This document shows positions 3,015 through 19,367 of a stretch of 64,000 nt of DNA, piece by piece. Where the stretch lies: contig NZ_KB913017.1 of assembly GCF_000383975.1 (NCBI RefSeq), positions 3,386,265 through 3,450,264 of the forward strand, given 5' to 3'. How positions within the stretch are numbered: position 1 is the first letter of the stretch; each line of letters opens with the position of its first letter. A program made the translations under genes and the position numbers. The notes beneath the pieces are model-generated. The model made no database searches. It saw only the letters and a program-made list of their open reading frames with translations, and was not told the DNA's origin. Origin of the DNA: Natronorubrum tibetense GA33 (GTDB taxonomy: Archaea > Halobacteriota > Halobacteria > Halobacteriales > Natrialbaceae).

Positions 3015-3962
3015 TCAAAGCTGCTGCAGCCGATCGTAGAACACGTCGTAGAACTGCTCGCCGTTTTTGACCATCCAGTCGAGATACGCGTCCCATTGCT
3101 CTTCGTCGCTAACATCACCGTGTTTTGTAATCCCGATTCTGCTTCGTTTCTTCCCTGACCGAGTCTCCTCGGGCTCATCCCAAGCGACCTGTTGATCAAA
3201 TTGTTGGTCAATCTCATCACGATCTTCTTCCAACTGCGAATACGCGTCAGCATCATCCCGAATAACGAGACCGACTCCGAGTTCATCATCACGCGTGTTA
3301 ATTGTGAACTGGAGTTCGAATCCTGACTTGCCGATGGAGAGATTGTGATAGTAACTCGGGTACGGTTTGCGGGCACTGAGTTGAGTCTCCCGTTCCTCGA
3401 TTCGGTCCCGAAATTCCGTCCAATACTCTTCTTGAAGTTGTTTCGTGTCGGTAAGCTCGCCTTCGGATCGTTGTGCTTTTTGTTTCCATTCGCTCGGTTC
3501 GACGACTGGATTGAGACGAACGGCCGGCTTTGAATCGCCAATTCTCCAGACTTCTAACCGGATAGCGAACAGATCGACTCCCTCACGACTGTTCTCGTTG
3601 AGTCACTGCATTGCGTCGCGGTGCTCGTCATAGAATCGCGGGGCGATCCAGACGATAATATCCGCATCAACGCCTGAGGCGTACGCAATCGATTTCCCCA
3701 GATGATCATGATCGGACGAGTTGAGTTGGTTCTCGATAACGACATTCCGATTGTCGTTGACGACTTCAGCCAAGATATCGACGTTGTACCTGCCGACACT
3801 CTTCTCTTCTTTAATAACCTCTAACTCCAGTCCAAGCGCGTTTTCTAGTTCGGATTCGTCCTCAGAACGTATTTCGTTAGCTACCCAGGGTGTGAAATCC
3901 CGAGCCTCGTCCGTCCAATAGTCACGTACTTCCTGCGACTCAAGAGACTCCAATTCCGGCAT
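3015..3962 (-). pseudogene. DUF4268-type nuclease-like gene, split by one in-frame TGA
   Basis: The frame runs for 315 codons and is open throughout except for one TGA at 3603-3605 (codon 120), where a TGG would read straight through: ...HRDAMQ(W)LNENSREGVDL. I read every codon from 3234 to 3602 and found no other stop. The N-terminal half has the family hallmarks YNVDILA, NVVIENQL and SDHDHLGKS near residues 58-93, and the C-terminal half continues with RLEVWRIGDS and a typical PSEW segment. DUF4268 proteins are PD-(D/E)XK-like predicted nucleases often found with defence genes or alone. Either this is a recent nonsense mutation, a sequencing error, or two polypeptides are made. The upstream promoter region is AT-rich at 3963-4000. 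Confidence 0.8.
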
Positions 3963-4119
3963 AGTCGAGACGATTCACCAGAGTATTAAAAACGTATGTG
4001 ACTATGACCAGCCGTCTGTACCGAGTCAGAACTCTCGTTAAGCCGGCAGAGTAAAAGCTGATCTCGGTAATTCCGTCACTACACTAGTGTAGCGCCGGAT
4101 TCAACGGGATTTTCAGATC

Positions 4120-4527
4120 TCACGGGGAAGTGTTGGTGTCGAGACCAGTTGTCATCTGGTGCTGGGTCTGTATTCCTGTGTGGAACCGTTGGACGAGTTC
4201 GGACTGGTGTTCGGGACACGCCATCGGAAGGATGACCCCGTTTTGAACTTGGACCAAGGGATGCGGCGAATTGTACGGGGCGAGACGGCAATTGGGACAC
4301 GACAATCCGCCGGCCGGTCGATGATGGAGAAGGTCAGCCGTGTCCTCCGATGTCAATCCACAGATCGAAGAAAACTGCTCGAGGTGGTCGTCACAGCTGA
4401 GGACAGGGATCGTCAGCTGGTCCAGGAGGAGAAATGAGACCTCTTGTTGGCTGCCAGACTGGACGGCAGACTGGCACGCATCACATCCGATAGCCGACAG
4501 CGACTGCTGGATATCTGGTGATGCCAT
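4120..4527 (-). CDS. Small zinc-knuckle protein, unknown function
   Basis: This 135-residue protein has CDAC near residue 15, CDDH near 45, CPNC near 77 and CPEH near 104, four short Cys/His pairs spaced like two zinc sites. It has no signal peptide or membrane segment. Small haloarchaeal zinc proteins of this kind are common on mobile elements and their roles are mostly unknown. It stands alone; the neighbours on both sides read differently or lie more than 150 nt away. I do not recognise the family. Confidence 0.65.
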   Translation of the reverse strand: MASPDIQQSLSAIGCDACQSAVQSGSQQEVSFLLLDQLTIPVLSCDDHLEQFSSICGLTSEDTADLLHHRPAGGLSCPNCRLAPYNSPHPLVQVQNGVILPMACPEHQSELVQRFHTGIQTQHQMTTGLDTNTSP

Positions 4528-4663
4528 TGTGTGTCCGCGGGCCGCTACACAGGTAAATCATGGGGTGTCAACCGTTCAGCAGGAGATGATGAGACGCTAA
4601 GACATCTCGAACCAGTTGACCCTGAGACGATTCACTTGGTGCGCTACGGGGCGTCCCCCTTTT

Positions 4664-4678
4664 GCAAGTCATTAAGTG
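4664..4678 (+). promoter_or_regulatory. TATA-like promoter element for the 4701 gene
   Basis: GTCATTAAGTGAGGG lies about 25-35 nt before the ATG, the spacing expected for a leaderless haloarchaeal transcript. Confidence 0.45.
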
Positions 4679-4700
4679 AGGGAGTCCACCAACCTGTTAT

Positions 4701-5153
4701 ATGAGGTACGAAAATTCGGCGGCAGGACGCCAATTGACCCTCCTACTCGAAGGGGTAGCGGTACCGACTGACGAGACAGAGCGTGAGCAGTTCCTCGACG
4801 ATCTCGAAACCGCTCTCGAGTCTGTATTCATCGAACACGACCTCGATACGGAGCGTCTCCGAGCGATCGGTGGTCATACTTACTCAGCAATCGATGACCG
4901 ATGTCCAGTGTGCGGTGACGATTTGAAACTGATCGAGCCGTCACTCGATCCGCATAATGGAGCACACGCACGGGCAACTTGCGAGTGTGGCTGGTTTGGA
5001 GAAGCAGTGTACCGGCTGATCGATCTCCACGAATCCACAGCAGGTAGCGGCGATCACAGTGCGACAAACGATGGTGAGTCAGGAACTGCGCTTTTCGACG
5101 AGAACAGTAGTGTCTCGCTATACGATCTCGATCTTCGGTACTATCCCTACTGA
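4701..5153 (+). CDS. Zinc-ribbon protein, unknown function
   Basis: The 150-residue protein has an alpha-helical N-terminal half and a zinc ribbon made of CPVCGDDL near residues 73-80 and CECGW near 98-102, followed by an acidic tail ending in YYPY. Cytoplasmic, with no signal or membrane segment. The start sits right behind a TATA-like element, so the transcript should be leaderless. The next gene (5216) lies 62 nt downstream in the same direction and has its own possible promoter. Its function is unknown. Confidence 0.7.
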   Translation: MRYENSAAGRQLTLLLEGVAVPTDETEREQFLDDLETALESVFIEHDLDTERLRAIGGHTYSAIDDRCPVCGDDLKLIEPSLDPHNGAHARATCECGWFGEAVYRLIDLHESTAGSGDHSATNDGESGTALFDENSSVSLYDLDLRYYPY

Positions 5154-5215
5154 CGATTGACGCAAAGTGCCACGAATCGACCGCGACCGCAGCTACGAAA
5201 AAAGCTAAGGTATAG

Positions 5216-5740
5216 ATGATAGGGAATCAACCAGACGACGACCGCGACCAGTGTACAAGGAATCAAACACATCCCGTCACGCTCGAGGACGTACTCGCTC
5301 TCGAGGAAGGGGACGCCATTGCTGTGCGAACGGTTATTGAAGAGCGCGTCGAGATATTTGCAGGCCGAGTCGAAGCAGACCCTCCCTCCCTGACGGCAAT
5401 TGAAAATGATCTCGACGAGTATTCTTGCGCATACTTACTGCCTGTCGACACGAATCTCTGGTGGATGCTCGAAGATGATCAAATCCATGATAAATACCAT
5501 GAGTTAGACGAACTTCCGCCATATCGGAAGGCAGTGGGTGAACCACTGACAGAACCACCGTCGTGTTCATTGGACTATCGAGAGGAGGAGGGAGTTCTAT
5601 TCACACTTCCATCACCGGTGTATAACAGCAGACGTGTCCACCACTATGCAAGAGATTGGGAGTACCCTGTCGTCGCACTTGAAAGTGGTAGTCTCGTCGA
5701 ACCTGAGAATCTAATTCCCGGAGACTACGATGGACAATAA
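5216..5740 (+). CDS. Hypothetical acidic protein
   Basis: The 174-residue protein is acidic, with no cysteine pairs arranged as a zinc site, no signal peptide and no membrane segment. It begins with a polar N-terminus, then a beta-rich core (DAIAVRTVIEERVEIFAGRV), and contains LLPVDTNLWWMLEDD in the middle. I do not recognise the family. It follows a zinc-ribbon gene in the same direction; an A-rich run at 5198-5206 could serve as its promoter or the end of the previous unit. Confidence 0.6.
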   Translation: MIGNQPDDDRDQCTRNQTHPVTLEDVLALEEGDAIAVRTVIEERVEIFAGRVEADPPSLTAIENDLDEYSCAYLLPVDTNLWWMLEDDQIHDKYHELDELPPYRKAVGEPLTEPPSCSLDYREEEGVLFTLPSPVYNSRRVHHYARDWEYPVVALESGSLVEPENLIPGDYDGQ

Positions 5741-6083
5741 CGTACTTGCTCTATTTCAAGGATTCCATTGTTTTTGCTCTCGATCGGTGTGCTGGCGCGC
5801 GCGTTCTCATATCAGCACGGATTTTTGGGCGATTCGTTCATCGGGAAATATCAATGAAATCTGTAAAACTCGGGGGTGGCTCTGCTGCTAGGTACTGTTT
5901 TGGGTGTCGGTTAGAGCCATCACTAGTTATTTTCTGCCAGTCTCGGTTATGTAAATTCAGGTGTGGGGGAATCTGAAGTGGATAATCTTGGTTGTTTGCT
6001 GTATTATGGCGATTTGATCGGCTAATAATAGCAGCTGAGGGCTTACTTTTTAAATAGCGTGTAGACTACAACCGTCTGCGAAT
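5741..6083. other. AT-rich intergenic stretch
   Basis: No convincing gene is present. The 76-codon plus frame at 5746-5976 has no protein-like composition. A TATA-like TTTTTAAATA at 6046-6056 sits about 28 nt before the 6084 start and probably drives it. Confidence 0.5.
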
Positions 6084-6557
6084 ATGACAAACACACACGA
6101 TTCCGAATCGGTACAGTGCAGAGATATTGATCATGAAAAACTCTTCGAACAGGGTATAGCCCCGGAGGCGTACCATGACTTTCAGGAGGTGGCTCAGGGT
6201 CTGATCTCTGTCCAAACCTGCTGTGAAATCGGTTACATTGAGGAACGATGCTCGCGTTGTTCAGCCAGGTTTTCCGGCCTTCAGATTCTTGGTGACGTTC
6301 CGAAGTCGATGCAGGATCTCAAGTGGATCACCGATGACGTGTACGATACGTTTTACGAGGATCCACGACCCGTTCATCACGTCGCCATGGGGCCGGATGT
6401 ACTCGAGTTGGGGCAAGAAGCAGTAATGGAGTTGTTCAAGTTGCTGCAGTTGACTGCTGGACTTGCCCGCGAGGACAAAGAGGACGGGACTGGCAAACGA
6501 TCCAAACAGGATCTCTGGGCGCGCGTACTCGGCCCGGAACACGCAAACACCAATTAA
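6084..6557 (+). CDS. Hypothetical protein with Cys-rich knuckle
   Basis: The 157-residue protein has TCC...ERCSRC around residues 45-60, a possible zinc knuckle, followed by a helical C-terminal half with ELFKLLQLTAGL and a basic patch GKRSKQD. There is no signal peptide. The start is supported by a TATA-like box about 28 nt upstream. The function is unknown and I do not recognise the family. It belongs to the run of small zinc-type proteins between 4.1 and 6.6 kb. Confidence 0.6.
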   Translation: MTNTHDSESVQCRDIDHEKLFEQGIAPEAYHDFQEVAQGLISVQTCCEIGYIEERCSRCSARFSGLQILGDVPKSMQDLKWITDDVYDTFYEDPRPVHHVAMGPDVLELGQEAVMELFKLLQLTAGLAREDKEDGTGKRSKQDLWARVLGPEHANTN

Positions 6558-6634
6558 CACGACCAGGCCAGTTGCACGTTAGAATCTGTTATAGAATGAT
6601 TCTCATGGATTCGGACGGTGATCAGTACAAGCGT

Positions 6635-6835
6635 CTACTCATTACTAAGGAAGACACTCGTATCGCGTTTCATGGCCGCTTCAAAGGCTTCCACTTCTTT
6701 CTCTATCGAATCAACGACGTCATCACCTAACAATTCTCGCACCTCTGTCTCTGTTATTTCGCCATCTCTATACTGTTCGTATATTTTGATTTTCTCTGCG
6801 TCAGCATCATCCATAGCTGTGTATTTGCCTCTCAT
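6635..6835 (-). CDS. Small helical protein, antitoxin-like
   Basis: This 66-residue protein is almost entirely helical and charged: EKIKIYEQYRDGEITETEV followed by an EKEVEAFEAAM helix. The size and pattern recall small archaeal antitoxins, but no toxin gene sits beside it, so this is only a resemblance. A start at Met8 is also possible. The next gene on this strand ends 115 nt away at 6950. Confidence 0.45.
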   Translation of the reverse strand: MRGKYTAMDDADAEKIKIYEQYRDGEITETEVRELLGDDVVDSIEKEVEAFEAAMKRDTSVFLSNE

Positions 6836-6949
6836 CGGATTAAGAGTGACTGAGCAACAGACTTCTTGATGCTCACTGCATACCCTAACTGTCGAATATG
6901 AATGAATTTATGACACGCTACGTTAACAGTAGATAGTAGTACCGCTTCT

Positions 6950-8539
6950 TTATTTAGTTCCACACCTGAAACTGAAATAGGCGATTCGGTAACTACGTAT
7001 GCAGGATGGGGCGATTATGTCTGTGTTATCATAGTATTTCCAGCTAGATCCATCGAAGACTGCGAGAACGTATGAATCACCAGCAGACGAATCGTCAGAG
7101 AGTGCAGTATTCCCTTCTTCAGCACCGGACGACTCGCTCAAATCATCCCCTCCGAGTGGACCACCATCAATCACACCGTCGAATTTGCATCTGTCTCCCG
7201 CACAGGTGAAGTCGGAGCCAAATCCTTCGGAATCGACACTCCACAGTTCCACATCATCCGAACTGATCCTAACTCCGTCCCCAGTTGAGTCGCCCGCAGC
7301 AAACGAAGATTGCGAAAGTGAAAAACCATCTGCGTTAACGATCCAAACCCCATGATCATCAGGATCTATAACATGAATGTTGCTTGCTTTTCCATTCACT
7401 GCCCCATCGACGTTAAAACCGTAGCGTCCAGCGTTTCGTGAGATAATCCCACGAGCTTCGCCACGCTCTTGAATCCTGAAACCATCCCGCCCGGTACCAT
7501 CAATAAAGCAGTCAACGATTTTATTTGGGCCGTCGCTTAGGTCTGCAATTCCAAAGTCTTCAGAGTCGAACACCTTACAGCCCTTTACGGTATTATTCGC
7601 TACCCCATCGCCCCGAAAGTCAATCCCCGATCCGGGACCGTCGGGGTTGTGGGCATCGTCAAACGACCACACGTTTTCAACGGTTGAGTTGGTTGTTCCC
7701 ATCGACACATGAATCCCGCTCTGCCGACAATTTCGTGTGATTCCGTGGCCGATATAGATATTGTCGCAGTAATCAGTATCAACGCCGTCACCGTTGCCCG
7801 CGAATGCATCGTCTGAGTCTCCTGAATTCTCGGAAATGAAATGCGTCACCTCCGAATTGTTTGCGAAATCAACGTCGATATTCTCTGTCCTGCCCCCCTC
7901 AACATGGACATATCTAATTGCACAGTTCTCGATACGATTATTTTCTTCACCTTGGATGCCAAGAATATATATTTCGTCGTGTTCATCTCCCTGTGTTATC
8001 GTTGCCGCTGGTCCCGGACCCCATAGTTCAACATTGTTGTGATCAATTGTGACTGGTTTGTCCCAAATATAGGTTCCTGACCCGTATGTACGGACGATTC
8101 CGCCGCCGTTGGAACCAATAGTACTGAGAGCGTCTTGGACTGCCTCCGGCCCGTCGTCAAGGTTGACCCGCTTGACGTTGTTTTGCTCACCTACACTGAC
8201 CTGGTCCGTTTCTACTGCATTCGTGACAAATGCTCCATCCGACTTCCAACCCCACGTCTCGCTGCTCGGTTCATGCTTAATGATGCGATCTCCGGTCTCC
8301 GGATCGATCTTCTCGGACACATCGCCATCGTCAATCCGAATCGGCGAGGTCAGTTCATTGTCCTCGTTGAAGTGATGTGAAGTTCCGTCAGTCATATCCT
8401 CGTCTTCTTCCGGTTCCGGGTCTTCGGAATCTTCGGGGTCGCTCGGACCATCGTCTGTTGTCTCTTGCCTCTGGCAGCCTGCTGTGAGCGTCGCCACCGC
8501 AGCGCCGGCCACAATCGCGGCCCGTCGCGAGAGCTTCAT
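6950..8539 (-). CDS. Tat lipoprotein with right-handed beta-helix (tailspike/pectate-lyase-like)
   Basis: The N-terminus is a Tat lipoprotein signal: SRR at 4-6, a hydrophobic run, then TAGC with the lipid cysteine at residue 22, followed by an acidic spacer. From about residue 125 onward (AVQDALSTIGSNGGGIVRTY) the sequence has the start of a pectate-lyase-3 type fold and then many short N-, G- and D-rich turns (NNRIENC, NSTVENV, NNTVKGC) typical of a right-handed parallel beta-helix. The C-terminal LAVFDGSSWKYYD resembles a tail-fibre tip segment. It is likely exported folded and anchored outside the membrane, where it could bind or cleave polysaccharide. A TATA-like TTTTATATGG lies about 25-30 nt upstream of the start. 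The last ~20 residues look unlike the rest and may be a frame-shifted end. Confidence 0.75.
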   Translation of the reverse strand: MKLSRRAAIVAGAAVATLTAGCQRQETTDDGPSDPEDSEDPEPEEDEDMTDGTSHHFNEDNELTSPIRIDDGDVSEKIDPETGDRIIKHEPSSETWGWKSDGAFVTNAVETDQVSVGEQNNVKRVNLDDGPEAVQDALSTIGSNGGGIVRTYGSGTYIWDKPVTIDHNNVELWGPGPAATITQGDEHDEIYILGIQGEENNRIENCAIRYVHVEGGRTENIDVDFANNSEVTHFISENSGDSDDAFAGNGDGVDTDYCDNIYIGHGITRNCRQSGIHVSMGTTNSTVENVWSFDDAHNPDGPGSGIDFRGDGVANNTVKGCKVFDSEDFGIADLSDGPNKIVDCFIDGTGRDGFRIQERGEARGIISRNAGRYGFNVDGAVNGKASNIHVIDPDDHGVWIVNADGFSLSQSSFAAGDSTGDGVRISSDDVELWSVDSEGFGSDFTCAGDRCKFDGVIDGGPLGGDDLSESSGAEEGNTALSDDSSAGDSYVLAVFDGSSWKYYDNTDIIAPSCIRSYRIAYFSFRCGTK

Positions 8540-8641
8540 GTCTCGTTGGTGTGACAGTCACCATATAAAACATCTGTTTGAGCTGAGTACTAGTCATTAG
8601 CATAGCTCATAAGGTCCGGTCCGGTGTATTAAGTAACCGCG

Positions 8642-9988
8642 TCAGGAGTGATCGGTGTAGATCCAATTATTCCCCTCTCGGACGTATTCGGTCGGCGTAT
8701 CTTGACGCTGTACTTTTGTGTCGTATCCACTTCCCTGCGAGTAATTGAAATGGTCATACCGCCCGGCCCACCAAATAACTGGCAAGTCGTTTTGGTGGCC
8801 TCGTGGGCTGATGGGTCGACCGCGTTTCGTCGGACGAGTTACAGACTCATCTGCTGGCGATAAGTCTTTTGACGACCACGATTCCCCATCATCGTCGGTC
8901 GACCATTCCTGTATCTGGTAGTTCCGGTTATCGGTTTCAACGGATGCATAGACCCTTGTTGGGTCTTGGGAGTCCAGCGAGAGTCCACCCTCGTAATAAT
9001 GTTCCTCGGGGAGTGAGCCACCCATCTCCACGATCTCACTTCCGATTACCCATTCTGAGCCGTCCCACTTAGCCCAACGAGCGCGATAGTCTCCATCTCC
9101 GCCACCTTCCCCAGTTTCGACGTGCTCGGTAAACGCAACGTGAGGGCGTCCAGCGCCATCACAAATCAAATCGTATTGTTTCGGCGGATTGTTCCCACTG
9201 GCTTCGCCGTCGTAGACCAGCGTGAGTTCCGTCTCATCCGTTAACTCCTGATCGCCGGACTGTATCACCGTACCGTCGCTCTCGTGATAGTCACCGCCCT
9301 CGAGATACCAGTGACGGATCGCAGGCGTATCCATACGATGATCTCCGAGCGCGAAGTGTAATCGATCCTCATGCTGGTACGGGTGGATGTAAATGGCTTC
9401 CGAGACCAAATCTACAAAGTCCTGTTCGCTGCCGTAGGTCTCTCCACCATCTGTCGACACGCGATATTTCCATTTCCCGTCAATGTGGCCTCCGACTCGG
9501 TAATAGAGCCGTAGCTCGCCATCCCACGGAACGGGCTGTGGATAGTCGACGTTTTCCACGTCGGCAGACGTGAACGACTGTGTACTCCCCCACGACGATA
9601 TATCCAGCGCGTTTTCGCTGATCGCATAATCCATATTTTCTGTCCCTTCGCCCCTATCGGTCCAGTAGACAATCAATCGATCATCGTCGCGGACGTGGAT
9701 TGCAGGGGATGAGTGATCGTCTGTCCAGTCAAGTTCGTCAGACACCCTCACTGATTCGGTCGCTCCGTCGTTGTGATCGTAGGCCGTGATACCGACCCAG
9801 CCACGCGAGTCCATCCAACCGACATAGGTCGTGTCTTCAACGCGGACTGCGCGCGGACGTTGATGGACTGACCATGCCCCATCGGAGACAAGTACTTCAG
9901 ACATTACCTCTGCCTCCTGGTTAGTTGCCAAGCATCCCGAAAGACCAACTGCACCGACCGTCGAGACAAGGAAATCGCGGCGTTCCAT
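8642..9988 (-). CDS. Tat lipoprotein, BNR/sialidase-like beta-propeller
   Basis: RRDF at 3-6 and LSGC (lipid Cys19) mark a Tat lipoprotein signal. The mature part resembles the BNR-4 family of sialidase-like propellers: repeated SPAIHVRDDDRLIVYW, WDGELRLYYRVGG, STDGGETYGSE and STDDDGESWSSKD segments, the last two being Asp-box-like. Such proteins act on or bind surface glycans. It has its own promoter (GTTTAATC about 28 nt upstream). It lies between the beta-helix gene and the LamG-like gene on the same strand, suggesting a set of surface or virus-derived receptor-binding proteins. Whether it hydrolyses anything is unknown. Confidence 0.7.
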   Translation of the reverse strand: MERRDFLVSTVGAVGLSGCLATNQEAEVMSEVLVSDGAWSVHQRPRAVRVEDTTYVGWMDSRGWVGITAYDHNDGATESVRVSDELDWTDDHSSPAIHVRDDDRLIVYWTDRGEGTENMDYAISENALDISSWGSTQSFTSADVENVDYPQPVPWDGELRLYYRVGGHIDGKWKYRVSTDGGETYGSEQDFVDLVSEAIYIHPYQHEDRLHFALGDHRMDTPAIRHWYLEGGDYHESDGTVIQSGDQELTDETELTLVYDGEASGNNPPKQYDLICDGAGRPHVAFTEHVETGEGGGDGDYRARWAKWDGSEWVIGSEIVEMGGSLPEEHYYEGGLSLDSQDPTRVYASVETDNRNYQIQEWSTDDDGESWSSKDLSPADESVTRPTKRGRPISPRGHQNDLPVIWWAGRYDHFNYSQGSGYDTKVQRQDTPTEYVREGNNWIYTDHS

Positions 9989-10040
9989 GCCCCGTGGTTG
10001 GAGTGGTGTTGATTAAACGTACCGTCTGTGATTCTATACA

Positions 10041-10700
10041 TTAGAACACCTCTATTCTGGTCACATCGAGGTCGTGGTCGGCTGTGTTAATTGGCGCAAA
10101 TATCTCAGGGTTAGATGGCATGAACGTTTCCGTTTCGGTACCCTCACTAACGCCGTCAAAGAACAACTCCCAATTCCCATCCCCGTCGTGTACTGCGGAG
10201 ACGGTATGAGGATCAGTATCCACAGGCCATGTAGATGAAACAACAGTGGACGTGGATCCGCCTTCGTCATACCGAAGTTCTAAACCACCATTCTCAATGA
10301 CCGAAATACGCCATCGATTGTCGGTGTCTTCACGAATTATATTTGGTGTGAACGCGCCAGTTCCGTCGGAAATCGTCTGGAACTGAAACTCAAAACTCCA
10401 AGTTCCGGCTGTCGTTGGCGCTGGAGTTTCTATCCCAGAGGTTGCATCGCCGGGCAATGTGAGGGAGTTATTCGATACGATCGGGTCTCCCGCAAGCACG
10501 TCCCACCCGACACGTGCTGTCGTTACAGCCTCGCTGTCCTCGGGTTCATCAAAGGCATACGGAACGTCGTCAAACCTCCTACCCCACCCCAGAGAGTCGT
10601 CTTCCCAGTCTTCCAAGACCCAACCATTTAGCACGCCAGCGACCTCTGGCTCGATCTCCAGCCAGTCTCCGTTCCAGCGGACAAATCTCGTTCTCGTCAT
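10041..10700 (-). CDS. LamG/concanavalin-like beta-sandwich protein
   Basis: I chose the ATG at 10700 (MTRTRFVRWNG) because it overlaps the stop of the small upstream gene as ATGA; a frame open further upstream exists but lacks support. The 219-residue protein has no signal peptide. Residues ~90-215 have the beta-sandwich pattern of laminin-G/concanavalin-like domains (SFEFQFQT, NRWRISVIENGGLELRYD, HTVSAVHDGDGNWELFFDG). Such domains bind carbohydrate and are frequent in viral tail fibres. Together with the preceding 52-residue ORF it looks like a piece of a tail module. Function inferred from fold pattern only. Confidence 0.6.
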   Translation of the reverse strand: MTRTRFVRWNGDWLEIEPEVAGVLNGWVLEDWEDDSLGWGRRFDDVPYAFDEPEDSEAVTTARVGWDVLAGDPIVSNNSLTLPGDATSGIETPAPTTAGTWSFEFQFQTISDGTGAFTPNIIREDTDNRWRISVIENGGLELRYDEGGSTSTVVSSTWPVDTDPHTVSAVHDGDGNWELFFDGVSEGTETETFMPSNPEIFAPINTADHDLDVTRIEVF

Positions 10701-10855
10701 TCGTCCACCTCTACCCAAACATCACCATCTCGAACGGTGAAATCCTCGATTTCTTCAGGATCATCTGGGCCGACAAAACGAGTGTGTGACGCGACCGTCT
10801 CGGCAGTCGTTTCTACGGCGTTCTCTATATCCTCTGTACTTACCGCGATTTTCAC
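10697..10855 (-). CDS. Small acidic protein, GTG start, coupled to the LamG-like gene
   Basis: A GTG at 10853-10855 opens a 52-codon frame (MKIAVSTEDIENAVETTAET...) that ends in TGA overlapping the ATG of the next gene. A TATA-like TTTATTC lies about 20 nt upstream of the GTG, giving a leaderless transcript for the pair. The acidic, helical then beta composition recalls small virion or linker proteins encoded before tail-fibre genes, but I do not recognise it. Confidence 0.55.
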   Translation of the reverse strand: MKIAVSTEDIENAVETTAETVASHTRFVGPDDPEEIEDFTVRDGDVWVEVDE

Positions 10856-11092
10856 GGAGAACTCTGAATAAAGAAACCGTACTACCAGCTACTGTTAAGT
10901 AATGAGCATTCTCACCCTTCCTTTTCGCCACGACGTGCGTTGACGAACCAGTTGGGTCATCTGTTATAGCTAAGCAAAGTCGACAATATCGACGAGATAT
11001 TCAGCCAGAAACCGAGACCAGTACACTAGCAGGTAGTGCGCAATAATTTGAGGTGGGGTAGAATTATTATGCTCAAGCGGCTACTGTAGCGT

Positions 11093-11638
11093 ATGCCGCC
11101 CGAAAATGCGTCCGGCGACGAGCCAGAATGGGTAGGGGCGTGGAAGGAGCACGCGTCGGCGTTTGATCGGGTGAAGTCGGTCACGATGACGCTTTCGGAG
11201 TCCCGACCCGCCTCTTGGATCGCTGAAGAGGCAGCCGTCTCTCCGAATACTGCGCGGGACCATCTACGTCGACTCATCGATCTTGGTGTCGTGATGGCGA
11301 CCGAGCAGGACGGGGTCCGCCACTACTATCCGGATCCGCTGTACACGCGACTCCGAGACATCCGGGAGTTACTCGAAGACACGACAAAACGGGAACTCTC
11401 AGAGCAGGCAGTGGCGTTGAAAGAAGATATCGCGGAGTGGAAAGCCGAGTATGACGCTGACTCCCCCGACGCACTCCGTGAACGAGCAGCTGTGGACGAT
11501 GTCTCTGCTGAGCTGGCATACGAATTGACGCGGGCAGCAAGCGACTGGGAACTCGCCCGGTATCGGCTCTCGCTTGTGCAGGACGCGATCAAGAACTACG
11601 ACACCTGGACGTCTGACTCGTCGTCAGTCACCATATGA
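11093..11638 (+). CDS. Winged-helix transcriptional regulator (DUF7342-like)
   Basis: Residues ~15-75 form a winged-helix DNA-binding domain with recognition segment ESRPASWIAEEAAVSPNTAR followed by a wing (GVVMATEQDGVRHYYPD). The C-terminal half is a long helical region (RELLEDTTKRELSEQAVALK) suited to dimerisation. Haloarchaea have many such HTH proteins paired with an unknown downstream gene. Its stop overlaps the start of that gene as ATGA (11635-11638), so the two are co-translated. It may autoregulate its operon. Confidence 0.75.
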   Translation: MPPENASGDEPEWVGAWKEHASAFDRVKSVTMTLSESRPASWIAEEAAVSPNTARDHLRRLIDLGVVMATEQDGVRHYYPDPLYTRLRDIRELLEDTTKRELSEQAVALKEDIAEWKAEYDADSPDALRERAAVDDVSAELAYELTRAASDWELARYRLSLVQDAIKNYDTWTSDSSSVTI

Positions 11639-12207
11639 CCGGCGACCGGGACGTGTCGAAGAACCAGTCCGACACTGACATCCACCGACGCGCTTCGCCT
11701 GACTCCTCCCGAGGACGTGTTCGCTTCGATGGGGGTTCGGATCCGGGTCGTGATCGACACCGCATTTTGCGCGAGTTACGTGGCGAACTGGCTCGACACC
11801 CTGCCGTTCGATCTATCGAGGGGGAACCACCGGACGAGTACCGGGAATTACGGGCCACGCTCGATCCATCGTGGTTCGGTCGCCCAGCAGAGACTGCGTC
11901 TCTCCGGGTGACGTGGATCCCGGATCCATTACCAGGTCCCGAAGCGGCCGACCGTACGAACGATACCTGGATGCGGACTCCGATACAGGCGTACTACACC
12001 ATCCATTACAGCGAAACTGACGGGCTCGACTGCGGGTTCCACTGTGAACCGAACCCCCACGTCGATGGACTACTTCATTATCAGGAGCGCGATGACGCGG
12101 ATGACACATACACCTACGAGCCGGTTTCGTTCGGTGCACGCTCGGTGTCCGGCCTCCTGTGGGAAGTGATGGACGCGCTCGCCGACCGGCTTGACGACTC
12201 TGAGTGA
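11635..12207 (+). CDS. Unknown partner of the winged-helix regulator
   Basis: The 190-residue protein has a disordered, charged N-terminal ~40 residues and a compact C-terminal part containing LRVTWIPDPLPGPEA, YYTIHYSETDGLDCGFHCEPN and HYQERDD, with scattered His and Cys. There is no signal peptide. The 4-nt overlap with the regulator gene argues for a fixed functional pair, either a toxin-antitoxin-like unit or a sensor and its regulator; the sequence itself does not decide. I know no function for the family. Confidence 0.65.
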   Translation: MTGDRDVSKNQSDTDIHRRASPDSSRGRVRFDGGSDPGRDRHRILRELRGELARHPAVRSIEGEPPDEYRELRATLDPSWFGRPAETASLRVTWIPDPLPGPEAADRTNDTWMRTPIQAYYTIHYSETDGLDCGFHCEPNPHVDGLLHYQERDDADDTYTYEPVSFGARSVSGLLWEVMDALADRLDDSE

Positions 12208-12539
12208 CGCGGATAAACTTGTTAGGATCGACCGGCTTTGTCAGGTATCCACTTGCACACAAGTTTCCTGGAATATGCATGGATTTTCTCAAGCACGGCT
12301 GTGAGACCAGTATCCCGCTCAGAGAAGGAAAGTGCAGCTAAACGTGTAGAGGAAATATAACTTTCTCGGGACGAGGTTTTATTATCTACCAATCTTCACG
12401 GGGGTAAAATCGCCAGAGTGCGACGGGGTGAGTGACAGCTGATCTGTGAGGGAAAGTATGCCCTATGGTATGTGAACTTTGGAGATTTTCTCCCGGGGCA
12501 AGTACTTATCCCGGAGAGGGCGGGAAGCAGACGTGAACT
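12208..12539. other. Transposase upstream region
   Basis: No gene is visible. ACTTGCACACAAGT at 12251-12264 is a short perfect inverted repeat, TTTTATTATC near 12377 is TATA-like, and CTCCCGGGGCAAGTACTTATCCCGGAGAG near 12491-12518 forms an imperfect inverted repeat just before the transposase start. I compared this region by eye with the flank after 15134 and saw no terminal inverted repeat of 10 nt or more. Confidence 0.45.
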
Positions 12540-14372
12540 ATGACAAGTCACCAATCAGGAAAAGCGAAAATATCCCATTCGGACGCATACGCTTGCGATC
12601 TCGGTACTGACGCTGATGGATCGTACAGTGTTGACATCACAGGCAGTCATGGCGACGAGACCAATGATGACGTGGGTCTCGGAGGGCGTGATACTGACGT
12701 TGCTGTCGAGCATCCAGTCGAAAACCAGCAGGAATTACGTTACCGGGCCCACCTCACTGCACAACTCGCTGCCCGCAACGATAAGAAGATTAGAAACACC
12801 GAACCCGCCGCAGCGTTCGACGACGCTGTGCTGGCTGTCGCGGATCGCGCGCTCGATGCGGTCGGTATTGACATAACCGCAATTCCGATCGAGCAACCGT
12901 ACCTTTACGCCCTCTTCTTACACGATGCGTGGGGGTTCAACTCAATCCTGAAACTCACCCGGCATTTGGATGATCACCCCGTGATTGCAAGTCGGATCGA
13001 ACTGAGTGAGATGCCCAGTGACTCCTCGTTCTACCGGCGTGTCTCAACACTCGCTGACGAGGGACTGGCAGGCCCCATCAAGAATGCAAGCGAGCGCGCG
13101 GTTCACGCCGTGTGGCGGAACTGTCGTCACGTCCCAGAGGAAGTAATGGAACACTGGGACCTTTCCCCAATAACGAGCATCAACAAGTATCCTGTATCAG
13201 CAGAGACGCGCCGAGAGGCGATTCGAAACTGGGTGAAAGTCTTACTCTCGGACGCTGCTGAGACACTCACGTTCGATCGTGCAGAGAATGCCTCGTACAC
13301 CATGGAAGAATACATCGGCGTGCTCGCTCACAGTGCACTCCAGAATACTGGTCTCACTGCTCTCCCGACCACGGCAGCGTGGCTGTACGATGCCGACCGA
13401 CTCCCTACGGGAGAGAGCTTGCTCAAACACATCAAATCAGACTCACTCCGTCTTGATGAAATCGAGACACAGTTCGCTGCAGCGAACGCCTCGGTACTAC
13501 AGCGAGGTGAAACGCTCGGTTTGTTCGATAACCCATTGGATCTCGCATTCGACACAGTAGACATCACGTGGTGGGGTTACCCTCTTGAAGCGACTATCGG
13601 GAAACGTCGATCAGCGACAGATGCCACACCGGACTGGGTGTACGGCGTGCTTATCGCGGTCACCAAGGACGCACGTGTGTGCTTCGGTGTTAACCTCGTA
13701 AAGAGCAAGGACCTGCATGACAGCGTTCTTGATGACCTGCTTGCGACGGCAACCACCTACGCCCACATCCGGCACGTGTTCGGCGACAAAGAATTCTACG
13801 ACGGGTCGGTCATCGAGACGCTTCGGAAACACATCGGCGATGGCTGGGTGATCAAAGCCCAACGCAGGAACCGTGTTCAAGAATTCATACGCGAGATCCC
13901 GACAGACAACCGCGGATTCCGTTCCGGACTCAACGTCACAAGCGCAACGCCAGCGCCCAACGCATTTGCTCTCCCGAAGCGCCTCCACGGCCAGCAGACA
14001 CTCGTGCATTTCAGAGACTCAAATACAGAGACTGCTGCTGATGATCGCGCCGATACTCATACGGTGTATCTTACAGACATGACGGATGAGGACGTGTCAG
14101 TAGAGATGATTAAGTCCCGGTACGATGATCGCTGGTCGATCGAAACGGCAATGCGCCAGTATCAACACGACTTCCACCCCGTCTGTGGTTCCAAGAACGT
14201 CAAGATACGAGTGTACTGCGCCAACATCGCCATGCTGTTCTTTAATTGGCATGCGCTGATCAACCGTGTCCTCTCCCCACAGTACAACCTCCCGTTGACC
14301 GTTACGCACCAAGAATTGCTCACTGCTATCCGGGATGTCGCCTTCAGAGAAGCAGACGGTCGAGAGAACTAA
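12540..14372 (+). CDS. DDE transposase (IS4/ISH3-like)
   Basis: The 610-residue protein has the layout of an IS4-superfamily DDE transposase: a helical N-terminal region, DTVDIT at 338-343 giving the first acidic residue (D341 or D338), FGDKEFYD at 414-421 (D416), and YDDRWSIETAMRQY at 528-541 with the Y-R-W-E signature (Y528, R531, W532, E535). It would cut and paste DNA as a multimer. The ~60-residue N-terminal extension rich in Asp and Gly is unusual. QPYLYALF at 119-126 resembles a PCNA-interaction motif (Q-x-x-L-x-x-h-F), of interest because a PCNA-like gene follows. The catalytic triad looks intact and there are no internal stops, so the gene may be active. Confidence 0.85.
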   Translation: MTSHQSGKAKISHSDAYACDLGTDADGSYSVDITGSHGDETNDDVGLGGRDTDVAVEHPVENQQELRYRAHLTAQLAARNDKKIRNTEPAAAFDDAVLAVADRALDAVGIDITAIPIEQPYLYALFLHDAWGFNSILKLTRHLDDHPVIASRIELSEMPSDSSFYRRVSTLADEGLAGPIKNASERAVHAVWRNCRHVPEEVMEHWDLSPITSINKYPVSAETRREAIRNWVKVLLSDAAETLTFDRAENASYTMEEYIGVLAHSALQNTGLTALPTTAAWLYDADRLPTGESLLKHIKSDSLRLDEIETQFAAANASVLQRGETLGLFDNPLDLAFDTVDITWWGYPLEATIGKRRSATDATPDWVYGVLIAVTKDARVCFGVNLVKSKDLHDSVLDDLLATATTYAHIRHVFGDKEFYDGSVIETLRKHIGDGWVIKAQRRNRVQEFIREIPTDNRGFRSGLNVTSATPAPNAFALPKRLHGQQTLVHFRDSNTETAADDRADTHTVYLTDMTDEDVSVEMIKSRYDDRWSIETAMRQYQHDFHPVCGSKNVKIRVYCANIAMLFFNWHALINRVLSPQYNLPLTVTHQELLTAIRDVAFREADGREN

Positions 14373-14375
14373 TCA

Positions 14376-15134
14376 ATGCGCGCCTGCCTCTCTGCGAAAA
14401 TGCTCCGTGACGCGCTTGCCCCAGTCGTTGCACTGGTTAACGAAGTTATCGTCTACGCTGACGGTGATGCACTCGTTCTCCATGCACTCGGAACAGACAA
14501 GACGGCCAGCGTGACTGTGACCATCCCTTCCGAGGCGTGCACTGCGTATACGCCCAGCGAACAGTCCTTCGGTATCAACGTTGACCGACTAACTGAATTT
14601 TTACATTGCTTCTCGTCTACTGCTCCAGTCACGATAACCAGCCCACCACATAGCGACCGATTCACCATTTCGATAGTTGATTCAACGTACTGCGCGGACT
14701 GTATCGACCCTAATACGATCTACCAACGCACCCAGAACGACTCGACTCAACCTGTTGCTGCCGTCTTCACCGTTCCTAGTGAGTCTACTCCCCTCAAACA
14801 ATCTCTCGTCGCCGCTAATCTTTGCAGCGAAACCATCACCATTGAGACTCAACGCAGTGACCCGGTGGTTCAATTCACAGCCACTGGGGACACGGACAGT
14901 ATGACCTCTCAACTGACTCGAGACGACATACTCACACTCACCGGAACCTCCATTCGTGCCACCTACCCTGTCGATAAATTCCTCTCGATGCACAAGGCTT
15001 TGAATCGGCGAACAGACCAATTCCGATTCACAATCAACGCCACACAGACACTCAGCCTCACCGCCCTCTACGCTGATAACGCCACCACAACTTGGTATAC
15101 CCTCTCACCACACGCAACCACATCGACTGATTGA
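14376..15134 (+). CDS. Divergent PCNA-like sliding clamp
   Basis: The 252 residues align along their whole length with archaeal PCNA (about 247 residues): LRDALAPVVALVNEVIVYA at 10-28 matches the first clamp helix and strand, GINVDRLTEFL at 66-76 the second, CIDPNTIYQ at 109-117 the domain junction, GDTD at 171-174, YPVDKFLSMHKAL at 197-209 the second-domain helix, and WYTLSPHA at 240-247 the C-terminal strand (YMLAP-type in host clamps). It is much more Ser/Thr-rich and less acidic than a haloarchaeal host PCNA. A clamp ring encircles DNA and recruits partners. Starting 3 nt after the transposase stop, it probably serves transposition or replication-coupled insertion; it could instead be a captured replication gene. 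Homology is judged from remembered family patterns, not a search. Confidence 0.8.
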   Translation: MRACLSAKMLRDALAPVVALVNEVIVYADGDALVLHALGTDKTASVTVTIPSEACTAYTPSEQSFGINVDRLTEFLHCFSSTAPVTITSPPHSDRFTISIVDSTYCADCIDPNTIYQRTQNDSTQPVAAVFTVPSESTPLKQSLVAANLCSETITIETQRSDPVVQFTATGDTDSMTSQLTRDDILTLTGTSIRATYPVDKFLSMHKALNRRTDQFRFTINATQTLSLTALYADNATTTWYTLSPHATTSTD

Positions 15135-15583
15135 ATGGTCCCAATACAGTGTATTCTGATTACACGGTTTCGATACGCCCGAGCAGTGTTACGATATCGT
15201 TGCCCACCAGGCTGTTCTGAACGAACTCTTAAAATAAACAACCTATTCACGTTCTACAATGCAACGTTCACTGAAACGAAATTGAAAGCCTTGCGTGCAT
15301 TTCTAAACAGTGACCCCTTTGATCTCGTCGTTCGTGACTACACGAAGACGCGTGACGGAGGTTCGACGCGACCAGTCCGAATGATCTTGAAGCGGCCCCA
15401 GTGCTTAATCCGAGGACTCTACCTGATGAAGAGGTCACACGACTCGCCGAATTATTTCGGTCATCGAAACCCAGTTAGGGGATTTCTAGACTGGGTCTCG
15501 GATTCCAACTGATCAAATATAATTTGACTCAAGTGGTCCTACGTTGCCAATACTTATCACTCAGATTCGAGCAGTATGAAGGC
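15135..15583 (+). other. Stretch after the clamp gene with possible decayed coding
   Basis: An ATG abuts the clamp stop (TGAATG) and opens a 125-codon frame to 15512 whose middle (KLKALRAFLNSDPFDLVVRD) looks protein-like. A second frame, reading LNPRTLPDEEVTRLAELF and stopping at 15476-15478, looks protein-like just where the first loses its character. This suggests a frameshifted remnant of a third gene. Inverted repeats at 15448-15461 (CCGAA/TTCGG) and 15466-15501 (11-nt arms, one mismatch) could be a terminator or an element end. Confidence 0.35.
15466..15501 (+). terminator. Hairpin after the transposase/clamp unit
   Basis: CGAAACCCAGT and ACTGGGTCTCG pair over 11 positions with one mismatch around a 14-nt loop. 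It lies downstream of the transposase and clamp genes. It may end transcription or mark an element boundary; which one is unclear. Confidence 0.3.
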
Positions 15584-16210
15584 ATGCAAAGCCGGCTATC
15601 TCGACGGTCACTCTTAGCGGTCGCTGGTGGGATCAGTCTCGCAGGTTGTCTGGATACGTCACCAACGGACGGGAACGATGACAGTGAGGACGAGACCGAT
15701 TCTGATGACGGCGAATCCACGGAATCCGAAGGCGAATCGGACGCACAAGATGCTGGAGGCAGTGACAACGTTGGTCTTGACACGTACAATTTCGAGGTAG
15801 ATGTTCCTGAGGAACGGCATGAAGAGGCACTTGAGAACCTTCTCGAAGGTATCGAGATGATAAACAACTCTGAGGAAGGCGACGAACTATACATGGAAGG
15901 CGAGATCGTCAGCTATACTGACGACGGGAATACGGCCGAAATAGTGGTTGAGTACCCGGAGGGGTACTCTGACCCGGATGAGGATGAGGATCTTAACGAG
16001 ACGGCGTACGCTGCTGGTGAGTTCATCGGTGAACGAATCGTAATCAGTGTGCTTATCGGCAGATACGCGTACAATGCGAACTCTCTTCCCGAGACATTCG
16101 AGACCCTCTATATTGAGGACGGCGCTGACGAACCGTTCGAGACGTCAACCTCAACAGCTGAAGAAGCCGCCGAGTACTACGAAGAGGACGTTGACAGCAC
16201 GGACACTTGA
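15584..16210 (+). CDS. Tat lipoprotein, unknown function
   Basis: I chose the ATG at 15584 because it begins a clean Tat lipoprotein signal: SRRSLL at 6-11 and LAGC with the lipid cysteine at residue 22; an upstream in-frame start would add 20 implausible residues. After a ~45-residue acidic linker comes a globular domain with DTYNFEVDVPEERHEEALEN and EIVVEYPEGYSDPDED. It is exported and anchored to the outer face of the membrane. I do not recognise the domain. The flanks are AT-rich and it appears to be a single-gene unit. Confidence 0.7.
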   Translation: MQSRLSRRSLLAVAGGISLAGCLDTSPTDGNDDSEDETDSDDGESTESEGESDAQDAGGSDNVGLDTYNFEVDVPEERHEEALENLLEGIEMINNSEEGDELYMEGEIVSYTDDGNTAEIVVEYPEGYSDPDEDEDLNETAYAAGEFIGERIVISVLIGRYAYNANSLPETFETLYIEDGADEPFETSTSTAEEAAEYYEEDVDSTDT

Positions 16211-16543
16211 TCAGATCTCCGGGGGCGTTAGCAAGGGCAAGTGTCCCTGTATCGTGAGCGCCGAGATGATTCCCGATACTCGTCTTGAGGAGGTGAAAAA
16301 AAGAGTCGTGGTGAAAGACGCTGTGTTGTGATTTTGAAGAATTCATTGTTGAAACGATTGAGTGATCCTTTCTAGAGGCCATTCCGTTCGGCTAATTCGC
16401 TACGTTTCCTATATGCCAATAGATAGCTCCACGAGCGCATATACCGATAAATTCCTTCAATTTTTAATATTGAAATATAACTCCATAAATCACTCAAGAG
16501 AGAGGGTTTTTAACTAAAAAGGTAATAGGCCGGTTTGCGTCAA
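16211..16543. other. AT-rich intergenic stretch before recombinase 1
   Basis: No gene is seen. TTCAATTTTTAATATTGAA at about 16457-16475 is an inverted repeat with 6-nt arms in very AT-rich DNA, and TTTTTAACTAAAAAGG at 16507-16522 is a likely TATA region for the recombinase that starts at 16544. Confidence 0.45.
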
Positions 16544-17923
16544 ATGACGAATGCAAAGCCAACGGCTGCTATCACTCAAGAGTTGCGGAGAGAACTCGGT
16601 GATGAGGCAGAAGATGTGCAGCGAAAGTATAGTGACCTTCACGATTGGATGATCAATGAGGGGAAGAATCCAAGGCGAGAAATCGGACTCAACAGAACAA
16701 CGGCGAAGAACTACCTCAATCGTCTCGATCAGCTTCATCGGCTCTCGATCACACATTTCGAACCGGATGATCCGTCGAAAATCGAAGATGAGCACGCAGA
16801 CGCGCTTCTGTTGATGATTGACCGAGCAGAGATCACAAAACAACGCGGGAAGAATAAAGACGAAGAGTACGGTGAATCAACGAAGAGAAAATTCTCCGAC
16901 ACGCTGGAGTGTTACTTCAAGTGGCGGTATTATGAAAGATCGATGGACTACGAATGGGAGCCCAAGATCAACTTCAGTGATGAGAAAGGTGAGTCCGCAT
17001 ACCGGTTCACTTACCGCGAATTAGGGAAGTTGTTCAAAGAAGCAGAAACGTACGGAGTGCTTCCATCGTACTACGATACACCAGTTAACGAGCGAGAACG
17101 GGTTGACGGTCTCGTTGCACAACGCCTCGGGATTCCGAAAGAAGATGTCACGCGGAACGACTGGCTCCATGCCGATTGGAGCGGGAAAACCCATTCACTG
17201 GTGACCGTTGGATTTGATGCTGGATTAGCCCCGATCGAAATTGCAAACGCCGAGACGCGCTGGTACGACCCGAAAACAAAGACACTCACAATCCCGACAG
17301 AGTACTCCTGTAAAGAGCGCGAAAAAGAAGAAGTCGGTCTGAGTGATGAATCTGCGGATTCGATGAGTGGATGGATGCAGGAACGACGCCACCTCAGTAA
17401 ATACGACGGCAGCAACAAGATCTGGCTTAATAGAGAGGGGAACTCCTACCAATCAGGGAGCCTCTGTAATCTTCTTCGAAGTCTCTGCGAAGAAGCAGGC
17501 ATCAAAACTGACGATCGAAAGATTGTCTGGTACAGTCTCCGCCAAACGATGGGACGGAACGTCACGGCAGAAGGAGAACTGTCAGAAGCTAACGATCAGT
17601 TGCGTCACGAACGATTCGAAACAACACAGGAGCGATACAACCAAACCCCAGTCGAAAAGCTTCAACTCCGACTCAATGAAACACGGCGGAAGGCAACGAA
17701 GGCAGCAGCAGATCCAAATTACAACCCCTACGAGGAAGAAGAACAGACTACATCGTCGACGCGTAACGCGAACACTTCGTCAGCACAGAACGCAGGAGAT
17801 CCGTCCTCTGCGGTCACCACAACACATGGAGGAGGCGTCCATATTGACGCTGTAATCCCCGACACTACAGAATCCCGAGTCGATATCACGAAGCAAATTC
17901 TCCACGACGAAACAGAGGACTAA
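16544..17923 (+). CDS. Tyrosine recombinase paralogue lacking catalytic Arg I
   Basis: I start at the ATG 16544 rather than a TTG three codons upstream. The 459-residue protein has a SAM-like N-terminal domain and a tyrosine recombinase catalytic domain. R333 (WYSLRQ), H355 (QLRHE) and Y365 (ERYNQ) are in place, and K257 or a neighbour could be the beta-hairpin lysine, but the first arginine is replaced: GLAPIEI has A229 where its neighbour has GLRPIEV. The C-terminal ~70 residues are a disordered extension. It is clearly a paralogue of the convergent gene ending 22 nt away. It may be inactive as an integrase and act as a directionality or regulatory factor, which is inference. Confidence 0.8.
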   Translation: MTNAKPTAAITQELRRELGDEAEDVQRKYSDLHDWMINEGKNPRREIGLNRTTAKNYLNRLDQLHRLSITHFEPDDPSKIEDEHADALLLMIDRAEITKQRGKNKDEEYGESTKRKFSDTLECYFKWRYYERSMDYEWEPKINFSDEKGESAYRFTYRELGKLFKEAETYGVLPSYYDTPVNERERVDGLVAQRLGIPKEDVTRNDWLHADWSGKTHSLVTVGFDAGLAPIEIANAETRWYDPKTKTLTIPTEYSCKEREKEEVGLSDESADSMSGWMQERRHLSKYDGSNKIWLNREGNSYQSGSLCNLLRSLCEEAGIKTDDRKIVWYSLRQTMGRNVTAEGELSEANDQLRHERFETTQERYNQTPVEKLQLRLNETRRKATKAAADPNYNPYEEEEQTTSSTRNANTSSAQNAGDPSSAVTTTHGGGVHIDAVIPDTTESRVDITKQILHDETED

Positions 17924-17945
17924 CTTCGCCCCTGGGAATGGAGAG

Positions 17946-19073
17946 CTAGCCCATTCGGTCCAACGCGTTCTTCCTGTCCTCAATTGGCGCTTGGTCGTAC
18001 TTCATCGTCGATTCTGGGGACTTATGACGGAGCTGTGTCTGTGCTGCAGCGAGTCCTTCTTCGCGCGCCATGTACGTTCCCGTTGAGTGGCGGATCGCGT
18101 ACCAACTCATCTGTCGATTCTCGGTGGAGATGTCTGCAATCTCGCAGAGCCGATGGAGTAGGTTTCGAAGTGACGCGGATTGGTAGGGATTTTTCTTTCT
18201 GGTGAGCCAGAGAGCGTCGGTGTCGTCATATTTCTCGATCGTTGATCGCTGCGTCAGCCAGCGGTCTAACATCTCGACGGTCTGGTTCTGTAGGCTGACG
18301 ATCCAGTGTTCCGTGTTCTTTGACGACTCTTCTTTCGGGATTCGAAGGACACCGTTGTCGATGTCAATCCACGTTGTTCGTGCGCGCTCAACTTCGATCG
18401 GGCGAAGTCCCCCATCGAGGCTTGCCCCAACGAGGCTGGGGATTTTCCAATTGTTCGCGCGTTCCCAGTCTGCTTCCGTCACCTCTGCTTTTGGTTTCCC
18501 GAACCGCTGGGCAAGATACGCCACCCACTGGTCTCGTTCGTCGCCGTAGACGCTATCACGACTCGGGACGCTCCCATATTCCAGCGACGCGTCTCGGATT
18601 GCGGTCCGTTCTTCGCGCGTCAGATAATCCCGGGGTGTCGTTGATTGGTTTTTGCGGGAGAACGTGATTTCTGGCTCCCACTTGTCCGCACCTCGTTGAT
18701 GATGCCGCCACTTGTAGAGCATCATCAGGGCCTTCCGACACGAATTTTTGTGCGCGTTTGACTTCTGTTGACCAGCTAAGTGACGCAAGTATCTGTCAGC
18801 GTGGTCGTGAGTGAGGTTGGACGTGTACCCTCCTTCGTGATCCCAGACCCAGCGATAGAATTGGTCCATCCGGAATGCTCGGTTACTGACCGTTGTCTCA
18901 GCATAGCCGTCAGCTGTCTTGGGATCCTTCCCAAACGTCAACAACCAGTCTAGACAGTGTTCTCGCTCGCTCCGGTAGTCGAGGTACTGTCGTTCGTTCA
19001 GTAACTCTTCAGTTGGACCAGGGATGAGCGTGATCCGATCGAGGGGGTCGGTTGCCTGATCGGCGTCTTTCAT
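17946..19073 (-). CDS. Tyrosine recombinase (integrase)
   Basis: The ATG at 19073 (MKDADQATD) is preferred to a TTG 19 codons upstream. The 375-residue protein has an N-terminal core-binding domain (EYLDYR-like start, YRWVWDHEG) and a complete catalytic set: R224 in GLRPIEV, K252 in SSKN, R328 in WYAIRH, H350 in QLRHK and the nucleophile Y359 in MKYDQ. The usual HxxR is YxxR, as in many archaeal integrases. It lies with its start 220 nt from the 3' end of tRNA-Glu, the expected attachment site, and should catalyse integration and excision of the element. It ends 22 nt from its paralogue, convergently. Confidence 0.88.
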   Translation of the reverse strand: MKDADQATDPLDRITLIPGPTEELLNERQYLDYRSEREHCLDWLLTFGKDPKTADGYAETTVSNRAFRMDQFYRWVWDHEGGYTSNLTHDHADRYLRHLAGQQKSNAHKNSCRKALMMLYKWRHHQRGADKWEPEITFSRKNQSTTPRDYLTREERTAIRDASLEYGSVPSRDSVYGDERDQWVAYLAQRFGKPKAEVTEADWERANNWKIPSLVGASLDGGLRPIEVERARTTWIDIDNGVLRIPKEESSKNTEHWIVSLQNQTVEMLDRWLTQRSTIEKYDDTDALWLTRKKNPYQSASLRNLLHRLCEIADISTENRQMSWYAIRHSTGTYMAREEGLAAAQTQLRHKSPESTMKYDQAPIEDRKNALDRMG

Positions 19074-19123
19074 TGCCTGACCTCCGAGGTGGGAACCTGG
19101 GTGAGTGCCCCTCGATTTCGCCG

Positions 19124-19262
19124 ATCGCAAGACGGCGGTCGATTTTCCCCCGTGAACCGCATTGCCTCACGAGAAAACCGAATCGCAAGACGGCGTCGGG
19201 GTCGATGCATCATTTGAATCGCATTGCCCGTGAACATACGTTTACCTATGGTTAGTTCACGG
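19124..19262. repeat. Short repeats between integrase and tRNA-Glu
   Basis: Three repeat families lie in 140 nt: ATCGCAAGACGGCG at 19124-19137 and 19182-19195; CGCATTGCC at 19158-19166 and 19220-19228; CCGTGAAC at 19150-19157 and 19228-19235, with its inverse GTTCACGG at 19255-19262. They are placed as integrase arm-type or excisionase sites would be, and overlap the integrase promoter. Confidence 0.55.
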
Positions 19263-19292
19263 CGAAAACCACGAGAAGGCGGCGGGGTAAGA

Positions 19293-19367
19293 TGCTCCGT
19301 CAGGGATTCGAACCCTAGTCATTGCCGTGAGAGGGCAATATGATTGGCCGGACTACACCAACGGAGC
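19293..19367 (-). tRNA. tRNA-Glu (CTC)
   Basis: The minus strand folds as a cloverleaf: acceptor GCTCCGT/ACGGAGC with discriminator A, anticodon stem TTGCC/GGCAA around loop CTCTCAC, giving anticodon CTC, and T arm AGGGTTCGAATCCCT. CCA is not encoded. It probably is the attachment site of the element to its left, with its 3' end facing that element. Confidence 0.92.

Follow-up and report, generated by a model that had tools for sequence, protein, structure and literature searches.

A haloarchaeal DDE transposase-type gene in a conserved operon with its own PCNA-like sliding clamp

Introduction

Transposases that contact the sliding clamp of their host are known from bacteria, archaea and eukaryotes, and to our knowledge they only borrow this clamp. 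The locus described here raises the question of why a transposase gene should be followed directly by a gene for a clamp of its own. It lies on the chromosome of the haloarchaeon Natronorubrum tibetense GA33, in a stretch of 64,000 nucleotides (G000:C1:3386265-3450264) that is referred to below as the window and whose numbering is used for the features of this locus. From the sequence alone, the original prediction proposed that a DDE transposase gene and a PCNA-like gene form an operon here and may constitute a new transposition system.

The Two Genes and Their Products

Both open reading frames are intact where they were predicted. The first, at 12540-14372 on the + strand, encodes a DDE transposase-type protein of 610 amino acids; the second gene of the operon, at 14376-15134 on the + strand, encodes a PCNA-like sliding clamp of 252 amino acids and follows in the same frame after a gap of 3 nt.

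The second product matches Pfam PCNA_N with 23.3 bits, above the cut-off of 20.3, and the NCBIfam sliding-clamp model NF002222 aligns with its residues 1-246 (E 8e-27, 94 bits, under the cut-off of 207). An AlphaFold2 model of the monomer (pLDDT 91.2, pTM 0.87) shows both domains of the clamp fold along the whole chain, and its best match in the PDB is 3ifv, the PCNA of Haloferax volcanii (E 1.4e-20, TM 0.85/0.91). The one other PCNA of the same genome is 24% identical to it. Judged by its predicted structure, the protein is a genuine full-length sliding clamp that is distinct from the host clamp. The original prediction, which had read it as PCNA-like along its whole length and had named a profile search without a PCNA match as its refutation, is borne out in both Pfam and structure.

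The first product is weakly recognizable by sequence and clearly recognizable by fold. Pfam DDE_Tnp_1 matches it below the cut-off (E 3.6e-4), the best NCBIfam match, ISH3, reaches 53.6 bits against an equivalog cut-off of 225, and kinship to ISH3 and IS4 is only distant at the sequence level. The structural model, in contrast, is close to Tn5 transposase (Foldseek E 5.7e-6, VIA Z about 18) and to piggyBac (Z 20.8). The fold comparison recommended by the original prediction thus leads to Tn5 for the transposase, as it leads to H. volcanii PCNA for the clamp. As modeled, the protein is of the DDE transposase type and belongs distantly to the IS4/ISH3 superfamily; besides a helical region at the N-terminus, it has a Tn5/piggyBac-like, RNase H-like catalytic core that holds a conserved triad. 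The predicted triad of D341, D416 and E535 needs correction in its first member: D416 (codon 13785-13787, + strand) and E535 (14142-14144, + strand) are invariant in 25 relatives, and so is D338 (13551-13553, + strand), whereas D341 is variable. Three residues of the IS4 signature Y-(2)-R-(3)-E-(6)-K are present in the window transposase (Y528, R531 and E535), with Q542 at the position of the lysine; among 13 other PCNA-linked relatives this position is K in 12 and R in one. The protein is filed here as a clamp-associated variant and not as a member of ISH3.

Conservation of the Pairing in Haloarchaea

The window transposase was used to search 391 genomes of the class, and the DNA around the best matches was then fetched. 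A PCNA-like gene lies directly downstream at all 15 loci of the transposase lineage (the window, L065-L070, L079, L081, L083, L084, L181-L183 and L031), which belong to 15 haloarchaeal genomes and, by their search labels, to six families. The end of the first gene overlaps the second by 1 or 4 nt at most of these loci, and no gap exceeds 88 nt. The original prediction had called for such a count and would have been refuted by related copies that usually lack the gene; in this lineage the opposite was found.

The more distant linked PCNAs were detected with iterated profiles among the neighboring open reading frames. The PCNA of L031 matches a profile built without it with E 3e-60, and NCBIfam sliding-clamp models match six of seven further linked PCNAs that were scanned, all under the curated cut-offs. 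The weakest calls are L083, which had no match in that scan, and its relative L183.

The two genes have diverged together. Across 14 loci, pairwise identities of the transposases and of the PCNAs are strongly correlated (Mantel r 0.91, a value reached by none of 5000 permutations). On the PCNA tree, fourteen linked PCNAs are set apart by one branch (79/91; recovered in 76% of bootstrap trees) from those of hosts, viruses and plasmids; because the branches are long, a single origin of the linked PCNAs is likely and not proven. In both genes non-synonymous change is low and synonymous change is near saturation, a divergence at which exact ratios are unreliable; since non-synonymous change is far below synonymous change, transposase and PCNA have both been kept functional. 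The pairing is an old, conserved two-gene operon and not a chance arrangement. Outside the class, a partial sample of 295 genomes from the phylum yielded no full-length member of the family, and a pattern search found no relatives in viral contigs.

Eleven related transposases (L071-L078, L080, L082 and L180; 660-724 amino acids) are not followed by a PCNA gene. In the transposase phylogeny they make up a single clade (100/100), which lies next to the group of the window (94/92) and within the PCNA-bearing set. L031, which had been entered as an outgroup, was also placed inside this set, and its PCNA was then found. Because the PCNA-less clade is nested within PCNA-bearing lineages, the clamp gene is likely to be ancestral and to have been lost once, and one old pairing followed by one loss is the simplest reading of these sequences.

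A PIP-Box-Like Motif and the Proposed Role of the Clamp

A physical reason for the pairing is suggested by a PIP-box-like motif, QQTLVHFR (residues 485-492; 13992-14015, + strand), in the loop that separates D416 from E535. Model confidence is low at residues 483-501 of this loop, which is probably disordered. The motif fits the pattern Q..[ILM]..[FYW] and is conserved as QQTLxxF in the two nearest relatives (QQTLINFR in L065 and QQTLAQFT in L066), and four of the 11 PCNA-less relatives have QTNIFDFT, QTKFSDFT, QTNLSDFT or QSSILEFS in the same loop. Such a motif occurs in seven of 14 aligned loops, compared with 0.47 expected, and no such count was obtained in 5000 shuffles; because the sequences are related, the seven loops represent about two lineages rather than seven events.

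The loop motif is absent from the other PCNA-bearing transposases (L067-L070, L079, L081, L083, L084 and L181-L183), and in L079, L084, L181 and L182 a weaker Q..V..F is found only near the N-terminus of the transposase. The C-terminus of PCNA is part of the usual PIP pocket. It looks degenerate in the PCNAs of L067, L068, L079, L081 and L182. Because these PCNA-bearing groups lack the loop motif and the C-termini examined look altered, they may dock differently. PIP boxes of H. volcanii are given as QxxLxxFx (PMC7776575). The motif and the pairing together support docking of the transposase on a sliding clamp which, in this lineage, would be its own.

On this basis, we give an even chance to the reading that a haloarchaeal DDE lineage of the IS4/ISH3 superfamily is expressed with a dedicated clamp that serves as a docking platform for its transposase. 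The host clamp loader would load the dedicated clamp onto DNA, and the transposase would then dock on it, in the window group through the PIP box of the loop described above. The clamp would thereby hold the transposase where it acts, be it at replicating DNA, at the nicks and gaps left by strand transfer, or at the ends of an integrated element, and a clamp of its own would spare the transposase competition for that of the host. The clamp would presumably form a ring and be used in choosing or steering toward a target or in gap repair; we infer a role in targeting, in repair or as a helper for a larger element. The more specific proposal, that the clamp is loaded at chosen DNA and recruits the transposase through the PIP box, so that target choice or repair would no longer depend on the clamp of the host, falls somewhat short of an even chance.

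Mobility and Genomic Context

The pair may also be a transposon that moves by itself, has divergent or distant ends and prefers integrative elements and their att regions as targets. We hold this reading, which is compatible with docking on a dedicated clamp, only tentatively, at less than even odds. The occurrence of the pair is patchy across the six families, and the flanks beyond both genes are not homologous between loci; the unit has thus reached different settings, alone or with larger elements. In the group of L079, L081, L084 and L182, homology is confined to the stretch from about 45 bp before the transposase to the PCNA stop. A conserved block of 35 nt, ATCGTTC....GCAG.AT..AAATAATCGGAAA, precedes the transposase by 230-255 nt in the same four loci and is weakly present in L181; it could be a left transposon end or a regulatory site. 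Against self-mobility, a weight-matrix scan found no right-hand partner of this block, each genome has one copy of the pair, that of N. tibetense included, and a search for an empty site of L068 gave no match in four genomes of the same genus. Terminal inverted repeats above the level of shuffled sequences were likewise not detected within 700 bp of the genes at 14 loci by repeat search, local alignment of the flanks or shared k-mers. The original prediction of a transposition system is supported in part, in that the PCNA, the DDE-type protein and the conserved operon are real; the signs of self-mobility (inverted repeats, multiple copies and an empty site) were not found.

A 94-bp hairpin-bearing sequence, 95% identical, occurs just downstream of two very divergent pairs (L079 34-127 and L183 11333-11426). 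Arrays of 14-15 tRNA genes lie a few kb from the pair in L069 (Halorubrum alkaliphilum; 2452-6547) and L081 (2871-6652), which belong to one genus by search label.

The setting of the window pair suggests the main rival of the docking-platform reading, in which the pair is a module of larger integrative elements, with the DDE recombinase and the clamp helping the element to replicate, excise, repair or rearrange; we consider this rather unlikely, slightly more so than self-mobility. The probabilities given for a docking platform, a mobile unit and such a helper module are not mutually exclusive. The window contains the right end (1-19367) of a 162-kb element integrated in tRNA-Glu(CTC) (19293-19367, - strand), which extends leftwards to about -142700. 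Its attL of 44 bp (19292-19335, - strand) has an exact copy in the same orientation, attR, 162 kb left of the tRNA and about 142.7 kb before the window start, and the genes that follow the tRNA in a genome of the same genus are 165 kb away in N. tibetense. G+C content is about 0.50-0.60 inside the element and 0.61-0.66 outside. The element contains one tnp-PCNA unit and one pair of convergent tyrosine recombinases, int1 (16535-17923, + strand; a PHROG integrase match with relatives beside tRNA-Glu(CTC)) and int2 (17946-19130, - strand; Pfam Phage_integrase, E 2.4e-16), and the transposase-clamp pair is about 4-7 kb from this tRNA-Glu/integrase end. Such elements also contain or border the pair in L065, L066, L070, L181 and L183, probably in L067, which has a recombinase pair and no intact tRNA detected, and probably in L069, where the 3′ half of a tRNA-Glu abuts the PCNA gene and is read as attR.

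A conserved att-arm block adjoins the genes in L066, L070, L181 and the PCNA-less L180, which agrees with a helper function, as do the single copy per genome and the lack of inverted repeats nearby. However, very divergent transposases beside the same att arm also fit repeated insertion there, and the remaining seven loci (L068, L079, L081, L083, L084, L182 and L031), about half of the 15, are in other settings with no such element in the fetched DNA.

The att arm consists of GGCAAT, a TATA-like stretch and ACACGG.CGA at a constant 73-74 nt from the att core, and is found in L066, L069, L070, L180, L181 and the attR of the window's element (G000, C1 about 3243608-3243800). Because in the five L loci this promoter-like block follows the transposase gene and a 17-nt copy of the tRNA-Glu anticodon arm lies 73-74 nt further on, a guide RNA was considered; it was rejected because the same block occurs at the attR of the window's element without a transposase, which identifies it as an att arm. 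A second, inverted copy of the anticodon arm is present on the int1 side (L066 7865-7881, L070 10551-10567, L180 7497-7513 and L181 8661-8677), and in L066 it matches the tRNA variant of the host. Since inverted att cores flank both integrases, the integrase cassette could invert.

It is improbable that the system has been domesticated and no longer transposes, for example as a nuclease-clamp pair directed against other replicons. Single copies would suit such a function, as would some neighbors, namely a TmtA-like protein of 1685 amino acids directly upstream of the L068 transposase (L068 10181-15238; PADLOC E 2e-121) and a protein of 347 amino acids, reading by eye like an HNH endonuclease, beside PCNA-bearing and PCNA-less transposases alike (L076, L080, L083 and L182); but the neighbors vary, and PADLOC has no match for either the transposase or the PCNA. 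That a plasmid or viral replication PCNA merely happens to follow a transposase, PCNA genes being common on haloarchaeal plasmids and viruses, is refuted by the linkage at 15 of 15 loci, to which are added the overlapping genes, the co-evolution and the lack of such a transposase immediately before the plasmid and viral PCNAs inspected, and it retains virtually no probability.

Comparison with Known Systems

A clamp encoded by a transposon, or a pair of this kind, is not described in the open-access literature searched, and neither is a family of transposases whose association with a clamp of their own is old enough to have diversified over six haloarchaeal families. The pair is a natural two-component system in which the use of a clamp to a DDE transposase can be studied, and its relatives supply the controls: some have the PIP motif and have lost the clamp, others have the clamp without the motif.

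The closest parallel in binding is IS1634, whose family is akin to IS4 and ISH3 and whose transposases bind sliding clamps, the one of Methanosarcina through a PIP-type motif (PMC4549789). Transposases of the IS1634/IS4/ISH3 type resemble the haloarchaeal protein in their DDE superfamily, in a PIP-box-like motif and in the expected docking on PCNA; their elements encode no clamp, whereas the haloarchaeal pair includes a PCNA gene, and searches around it revealed no inverted repeats. In Tn7, TnsE binds the beta clamp (PMC9690074, citing Parks 2009). The transposition machinery touches a sliding clamp there, as is expected for the haloarchaeal pair, but TnsE works as an adaptor on the clamp of the host, and Tn7 encodes none. 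The ISH3 family of haloarchaea, which gives the best NCBIfam match, differs in size, since the window lineage has about 600 amino acids compared with the 298 positions of the ISH3 model, and in lacking the extra N-terminal region and the PCNA operon. Finally, the PCNAs of phiCh1, phiH, HRTV-DL1 and CGphi46 are likewise clamps of mobile elements that are distinct from the host gene, but they are not linked to a transposase and are separated from the linked PCNAs on the PCNA tree.
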